Shown in pieces: positions 1 through 531 of a stretch of 64,000 nucleotides of DNA. The position numbers and the translations under genes were made by a program. The notes under the pieces are model-generated. The model was given only the letters and a program-made list of their open reading frames with translations, searched no databases and had not been told where the DNA came from. Location of the stretch: assembly GCA_002733215.1 (NCBI GenBank), contig NVUY01000006.1, forward strand, positions 1 to 64,000. The letters run 5' to 3'. This DNA comes from Sulfurovum sp. (GTDB lineage: Bacteria; Campylobacterota; Campylobacteria; Campylobacterales; Sulfurovaceae). How positions within the stretch are numbered: the first letter of the stretch is position 1; each line of letters opens with the position of its first letter.

Positions 1-90
1 TTGAAAAGCCGTATGCGGGAAATCCGCACGTACGGATTTGTGAGGGTCCTACCTACAACTGAAACTTTGGTTGAGGGGTAGTTCTACTCG
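1..90 (+). mobile_element. 3' end of a group II intron (domains V and VI)
   Basis: Positions 4-39 fold as a domain V hairpin. The catalytic AGC triad is at 7-9, the lower stem GCCGTA (8-13) pairs with TACGG (31-35), the upper stem TGCGG (14-18) pairs with CCGCA (24-28), there is a GAAA-type loop, and the characteristic two-base CG bulge lies at 29-30. One G-A mismatch (8/36) replaces the usual G-U. Domain VI follows: CTACC (49-53) pairs with GGTAG (77-81), and A74 is the candidate bulged branch-point adenosine. The 3' splice site should fall at about 86-90, directly before the ybeY start codon. The intron body and any reverse transcriptase lie left of the window. The hairpin is read directly; exact intron class and splice site are inferred. 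Confidence 0.78.
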
Positions 91-531
91 ATGATAGATC
101 TGGATAATCAAACCACACTTGCAGTCGACCTGGATGCACTGGAAAAGATAGCGCAAACACTTTCTACTAAAGAAGTAGAGCTTATCATCACAGATGACAA
201 AACAATGCAGGCACTCAATGCAGAACATAGAGGGAAAGATACGACGACAGATGTCCTCTCTTTTCCTATAGAAGCGCCTTTTACAGAACAGTCTATCTTT
301 GGTATGCCTTTGGGGTCTATCATCATAGCAGAGTCCTATGTAAAAGAGAAAGCTGCCTTATTGAAACACAGTACACAGGATGAGCTTTCACTGCTTTTCA
401 TTCACGGGATGCTGCATCTGCTGGGTTTTGACCATGAGAGTGATGACGGAGAGATGAGAGGCAGAGAAAAAGAGCTCATAAAAGCCTTTGATCTACCAAA
501 TAGTTTAATTGTAAGAATGGAGGAAAGTTAA
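91..531 (+). CDS. ybeY: Endoribonuclease YbeY (16S rRNA maturation)
   Basis: YbeY is a zinc-dependent single-strand endoribonuclease acting in 16S rRNA 3' processing and ribosome quality control. The protein is 146 residues, normal for the family. The zinc motif HGMLHLLGFDHE (family pattern HGxLHLxGYDH) lies at about residues 105-116, and the upstream substrate-cleft motif TDVLSFP is at about 52-58. The start MIDLDNQ resembles that of other epsilonproteobacterial YbeY proteins. The only Shine-Dalgarno-like sequence (GAGGGG, 73-78) lies inside the preceding intron domain VI, 12 nt from the ATG. The next gene begins one base after the stop codon, so the two are cotranscribed. Confidence 0.93.
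   Translation: MIDLDNQTTLAVDLDALEKIAQTLSTKEVELIITDDKTMQALNAEHRGKDTTTDVLSFPIEAPFTEQSIFGMPLGSIIIAESYVKEKAALLKHSTQDELSLLFIHGMLHLLGFDHESDDGEMRGREKELIKAFDLPNSLIVRMEES

Follow-up and report, generated by a model that had tools for sequence, protein, structure and literature searches.

The window analyzed here is a stretch of 64,000 nucleotides from Sulfurovum sp. Its first nucleotide is also the first of contig C33 in a genome that consists of 47 contigs and is 85% complete. The stretch opens with the 3' end of a group II intron that runs into the start codon of ybeY, and the following features were annotated:

1-92, + strand: group II intron 3' end (RF00029 at 4-92; the same bases recur at further genomic places)
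5-39, + strand: domain V hairpin (fold and covariation)
41-90, + strand: domain VI hairpin (fold and covariation)
73-78, + strand: Shine-Dalgarno (SD)-like GAGGGG on the 3' strand of the domain VI stem (direct reading)
86, + strand: bulged A, the single bulge of domain VI and a candidate branch point, seventh base from the intron end
91-93, + strand: ATG common to the intron end (AT, 91-92) and exon 2 (G, 93), with AT/G at all nine distinct genomic 3' junctions (the slash marks the junction here and below)
91-531, + strand: host gene ybeY, an endoribonuclease (Pfam PF02130, 109.7 bits; orthologs)

RF00029 at 4-92 was the sole Rfam match in the whole 64 kb and scored 49.6 bits against a gathering threshold of 40. 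Window positions 4-92 fold (z = -3.02) into domain V (D5) and a domain VI (D6) in which A86 is the single bulge, and equally good folds were obtained in 4 of 200 shuffles. Across four related introns, 98% of D5-D6 cells pair and five pairs are changed on both sides; neither value was matched in any of 500 shuffles. Window positions 4-92 are domains V and VI of a group II intron, as a preliminary description of this DNA had recognized. That description placed the intron end exactly at the ybeY start codon, which holds with the refinement that the ATG is shared: A91 and T92 are the last bases of the intron and exon 2 begins with G93. It was also right that the only SD-like sequence for ybeY is GAGGGG in the D6 stem, and most related introns carry a GAGG-type motif at a distance of 17-20 nt from their 3' end. 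Since the window starts where contig C33 starts, domains I-IV of the ybeY copy are missing.

The upstream intron parts that the preliminary description had called for were recovered from a complete copy on contig C43, the ybeY copy itself being cut by the contig end. This copy is 1967 nt long and comprises D1 (RF02005 match), an RT/maturase and D5-D6. The encoded RT/maturase has 466 aa and scores 309.9 bits with TIGR04416 (cutoff 300); a Pfam search of the protein reported RVT_1 alone and no endonuclease domain. The 5' end of the C43 copy is GTGTG, and GTGTG (5') and AT (3') are found at the ends of all main copies, fitting the group II rule of GUGYG and AY. D5 and D6 with a bulged A, D1 with EBS1-IBS1 pairing (3-6 of 6 bases in exons of this genome), the end sequences and the RT/maturase together mark the element as a group II intron.

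The 3' end of this main intron has ten matches in the genome at nine distinct places, one host gene being represented twice, and all nine junctions read ..CTACTCGAT/G. In eight of them the junction ATG is the first codon of a Pfam-recognized protein, namely YbeY, DnaG primase, CinA, an arginyl-type tRNA-protein transferase (the gene found twice, which we take to be bpt), TruD, GDPD, GTP cyclohydrolase II (ribA) and a family 4 glycosyl transferase. The ninth (L015) differs in that its ATG begins a 21-codon ORF, and the probable start of the gene lies 37 nt farther downstream. The arrangement is thus not special to ybeY.

On the 5' side, the genome yielded ten distinct junctions of the main intron, which a second model (R2) detected again. 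All ten 5' exons end in AT, and nine carry an exact TATAAT 8-9 nt upstream of the junction. Within the window, TATAAT at this distance precedes 5 of 2759 ATGs (binomial 2e-24) and 1 of 67 ATG starts of ORFs of at least 100 aa (binomial 2e-13). The tenth 5' exon, at the ybeY site, has TAAACT (4 of 6 matches to TATAAT) and ends in ..gggTAAACTtcgagcAT/ at the end of contig C44; it was assigned to ybeY because intron-free relatives have a matching sequence and a matching divergent neighbor gene in front of ybeY. The ten targets are different and share the -10 box and YAT/G only, unlike the one fixed target of 20-35 bp of a site-specific homing intron. Terminator targeting was considered and ruled out by the promoters in the 5' exons, which end in the -10 box plus YAT; no terminator hairpin was found directly upstream of the insertions. 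A -10 box at such a distance would put the first transcribed base on the A of the ATG or on the base preceding it, and therefore the host genes are predicted to be leaderless, with an RNA 5' exon of about 2 nt. Such a layout would have a precedent in Campylobacter jejuni, which we take to belong to the same phylum as the window organism and for which the accessible text of one study gives about 20 predicted leaderless mRNAs (PMC11955535).

Six of the sites could be paired, 5' with 3', by synteny with intron-free relatives (ybeY-C44, bpt-C15, cinA-C43, dnaG-C47, ribA-C23 and the L015 gene-C5), leaving those of TruD, GDPD and the glycosyl transferase unpaired. At the start of C43 (L016 540-490), the ileS side is joined to bpt, with a run of Ns after the ATG. 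In view of these Ns and of the synteny that pairs bpt with C15, this join was treated as chimeric, and it is likely a chimeric consensus at the intron repeat. Sixty orthologous start regions were then taken from ten intron-free genomes of the same genus, with -10 boxes counted by eye. A -10-like box stands 5-7 nt (mostly 6-7) before the ATG in 52 of the 60, including 10 of 10 ribA orthologs; the eight starts with no box belong to dnaG (three), bpt (three), cinA (one, whose start is probably misassigned) and an ortholog of the L015 gene (one). The upstream neighbor is often divergent, and the intron would therefore be transcribed from the host gene's own promoter. The preliminary description had pointed to the ybeY start context in intron-free relatives, which proved uniform, with TAAACT-N6/7-ATG in 9 of 9 orthologs and no SD sequence. 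Its proposal that spliced ybeY would use a ribosome site in the upstream exon fails on this comparison and on the 5' exon at C44; the spliced mRNA would instead start at or next to the AUG.

A contig scan of genomes identified related introns in a Sulfurimonas MAG (protein 86% identical, partial) and in a Bacteriovoracaceae MAG (61%), the latter from a second phylum. The Sulfurimonas copy has AT/G at the start of an ORF that is presumably aminotransferase-like, and all four 3' junctions of the window lineage in the Bacteriovoracaceae MAG are AT/G at ORF starts. The 5' exon of the Bacteriovoracaceae copy L043 reads TACGAA-N7-AT, while those of the variant intron in this MAG read TACAAT-N7-AT, TATACT-N6-AT (with TTGACA 16 nt upstream) and TATAAG-N6-AT. 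Model R2 matched 19 of 368 genomes of this second phylum. Sixteen stretches from R2-matching genomes were examined, in which model R1 gave eight convincing 3' ends, six of them in the window lineage. Introns L166, L170, L171 and L173 each have both junctions within a single contig and are inserted at start codons with a -10 box of 5 of 6 matches; their hosts, identified by reading or Pfam, are a SerA-like protein, a Gp49 protein (Pfam), an HTH protein and an HTH protein with Pfam HTH_17, respectively. L174 precedes a 19-codon ORF, and L167 lies inside an ORF, presumably an LD-carboxypeptidase, at TACGAT-N6-AT/G with a perfect EBS1 match. When the 17 5' exons from other genomes were compared with TATAAT, eight had at least 5 of 6 matches, five had four and four had three or fewer. 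Thirteen weaker 5' matches (L147, L162-L165, L150-L153, L155-L157 and L161) stand outside that count, with 5 of 6 in 1 of 13 and 4 of 6 in 3 of 13. In the IEP tree, the main intron (L016), L043 and L166 are grouped (100/99) in a clade that also holds L167 and L174 and is separate from the introns inserted after ATGA, which are described below.

At 1e-60, the intron protein is matched in 3 of 175 genomes of the window genome's family, the other two at 37-38% identity, and at 1e-90 in 1 of 397 genomes of a phylum sample, which is the window's own genome. No relative was found among the viral contigs searched. Phage and plasmid relatives are all below 60% identity, and in the eight examined the readable junctions are not at start codons. 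Among the introns examined, the 371-nt L171, with both junctions at a start codon, is the smallest, and a related multi-copy intron in genome G739 (L147, L162-L165) has 5' exons that end in GAT or AGT, not YAT.

Four points are established at the level of sequence: where the intron inserts, the recurrence of this position at many genes and in two phyla, the conserved, predicted leaderless promoters at empty sites and the AU end that rebuilds the AUG. We consider it likely that an endonuclease-less group II lineage targets the start codon of leaderless genes, in the form of a -10 box, 6-7 nt and A-T/G. Counting against such targeting are TAAACT at ybeY, L167 within an ORF, L174 at a 19-codon ORF, the offset at L015 and the weak boxes in other genomes. 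Transcription of intron and host gene would start about 2 nt before the intron, as judged from its position, with the intron taking over the host promoter. More probably than the mechanism of the preliminary description, this takeover and the AUG rebuilt from the AU at the intron 3' end and the G of the exon would leave the gene readable even unspliced. Host protein could then come from unspliced RNA, through the AUG at the intron end and the SD-like GAGG of D6, or from a spliced mRNA that is leaderless and begins with AUG. Also against the start-codon reading, the SD-like motif lies farther from the AUG than usual and is paired in D6, and a 5' exon of 2 nt should serve poorly in the second step of splicing.

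That splicing can matter is best suggested by L018 (contig C13, about 30.7-31.4 kb), a copy of a second type in the window genome. It is a 715-nt intron with no protein gene, the 3' end of which is 88% identical to that of the main intron. Its EBS1 loop differs from that of the main intron and can form 6 of 6 pairs with AGTATG of its own exon, and its insertion point is after the ATG (ATG/G) of a leaderless-type gene. In unspliced L018 RNA, the new ATG would meet a stop after three codons, and the host ORF would be restored solely in the spliced product. This spliced ORF is conserved, with a match in 7 of 61 genomes including its own and 76% identity to the best relative; this relative, intron-free and with an intact ortholog, reads TTGACA-N17-TACACT-N6-ATGGGAAAAATA.

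How the target is chosen can be approached through the state of promoter DNA. In an open complex, the sense strand is single-stranded between the -10 box and a point slightly beyond the transcription start, and this bubble, together with a protein that has no endonuclease domain, makes insertion into the open complex an attractive, if hypothetical, idea. With less assurance than for the insertion position, the choice of target may depend on the single-stranded sense DNA of the RNA polymerase open complex together with a short EBS1-IBS1 pairing, and not on EBS2 pairing with the -10 box. Stated in full, reverse splicing into the open-complex sense strand at leaderless genes would be a fourth kind of target, calling for active promoters, transcription from the host start with a 2-nt 5' exon, and a rebuilt start codon that makes even essential genes tolerant; we put this forward tentatively, as somewhat less probable than not. 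Ordinary sequence-specific homing, in which an unrecognized EBS2 or the intron protein reads TATAAT and YAT as DNA and transcription is uninvolved, is a rather unlikely alternative. The EBS1-IBS1 pairing is genuine and co-varies, L167 was inserted inside an ORF where its target sequence and EBS1 match were present, and a protein could read a TATAAT-like site. Against this, the spacing between the -10 hexamer and the junction is not fixed but differs by one base (8 or 9 nt), and the hexamer itself varies in the manner of -10 boxes (TATACT, TACAAT, TAAAAT), in two cases accompanied by TTGACA or TTGTCA at 16-17 nt. No stretch of D1 is enriched in complements of the hexamer: taking EBS2 at its presumed position, 11 complements of the -10 box were seen in D1 of L016 versus 14.4 expected. 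In L173 and L174, the loop at the presumed EBS2 place is shortened. An explanation of the -10 box by EBS2 pairing thus finds no support in these sequences.

It is improbable that insertion is loose (at YAT/G) and that copies persist solely at leaderless starts, where the host gene stays expressed. A rebuilt AUG and the SD-like motif in D6 would indeed make insertions mild, yet leadered starts would be equally protected and are not hit, with 1 of 67 window ORF starts having TATAAT at 8-9 nt as against the exact hexamer in 9 of 10 5' exons of the genome, and no copy was found in neutral intergenic DNA. The switch envisaged in the preliminary description, whereby D6 hides a ribosome site and splicing supplies another from the upstream exon to control ybeY, now appears very unlikely: GAGGGG is paired in D6 as it would require, but the upstream exon has no SD sequence and consists of a promoter that runs up to the start codon, and the same arrangement recurs at many unrelated genes. 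That repeat-broken contigs mimic start-codon insertions through chance joins is barely credible. Most copies in the genome do lie at contig ends, and the C43 join contains Ns; even so, 3' and 5' junctions agree independently, six are paired by synteny and complete copies stand on single contigs in other genomes.

The preferred reading, insertion at the start codons of leaderless genes, may be set beside known systems. Class C (IIC) introns encode an endonuclease-less RT and enter functional-motif targets, after terminators or at attC, with little reliance on EBS2. The window lineage has the missing endonuclease and a motif target in common with them, and perhaps the small role of EBS2; it would aim at the opposite end of the gene, at the promoter -10 box and start codon. 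With RF02005 (group-II-D1D4-6) introns carrying TIGR04416 proteins it shares the D1 match and RT/maturase family, whereas plasmid and phage relatives of this type are not at start codons where junctions are readable. In yeast, the retroelement Ty3 integrates where Pol III transcription begins and is likewise aimed at transcription starts, but it is an LTR element with an integrase in a different domain of life. In the c-di-GMP allosteric ribozyme of C. difficile, an intron boundary also lies beside a start codon and splicing could change translation; that intron is group I, riboswitch-controlled and creates a ribosome site, whereas the spliced product of the window intron would be leaderless. 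For C. tetani C.te.I1, the accessible part of the report annotates start codons of downstream ORFs in D5/6 and gives unspliced RNA as the main mRNA; as described there, the intron joins coding exons, with no targeting of promoters or start codons (PMC3919590). Homing sites, terminators and attC are the group II target specificities named in the accessible text of PMC4424553. The literature searched, which covers few subscription journals, yielded no group II intron directed to promoters or start codons. Such targeting, if true, would be a fourth type beside the three described and would link retroelement targeting to bacterial transcription initiation. It would explain how the start codon of, for example, dnaG or ybeY can be occupied by a retroelement and provide a DNA-level marker of leaderless genes, and it raises the question whether, and by what route, splicing can proceed from a 5' exon of 2 nt.

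A sister lineage is inserted after ATGA, with 5' exons ending in ATGA/ at L041, L042, L177, L178 and contig C67 of genome G542. The C67 copy is the fifth match in the Bacteriovoracaceae genome and belongs to this sister lineage, not to the window lineage. The last 13 bases of the sister introns read ATG-NNT-ACT-CNA-C, after an AGGA-type run, and this ATG, which lies in domain VI, is in phase with the host ORF in all four introns with a readable 3' exon, a phase that matches ATGA/ by construction. With an SD-like run and an in-phase ATG at the intron end, unspliced RNA could therefore give a host protein with an altered N-terminus. The same features were noted in sister introns at L115/L133. 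The window genome also contains a different group II intron (L122 and L123; contigs C21 and C47), which lies inside an apparent transposase ORF and has an ATG near its 3' end.
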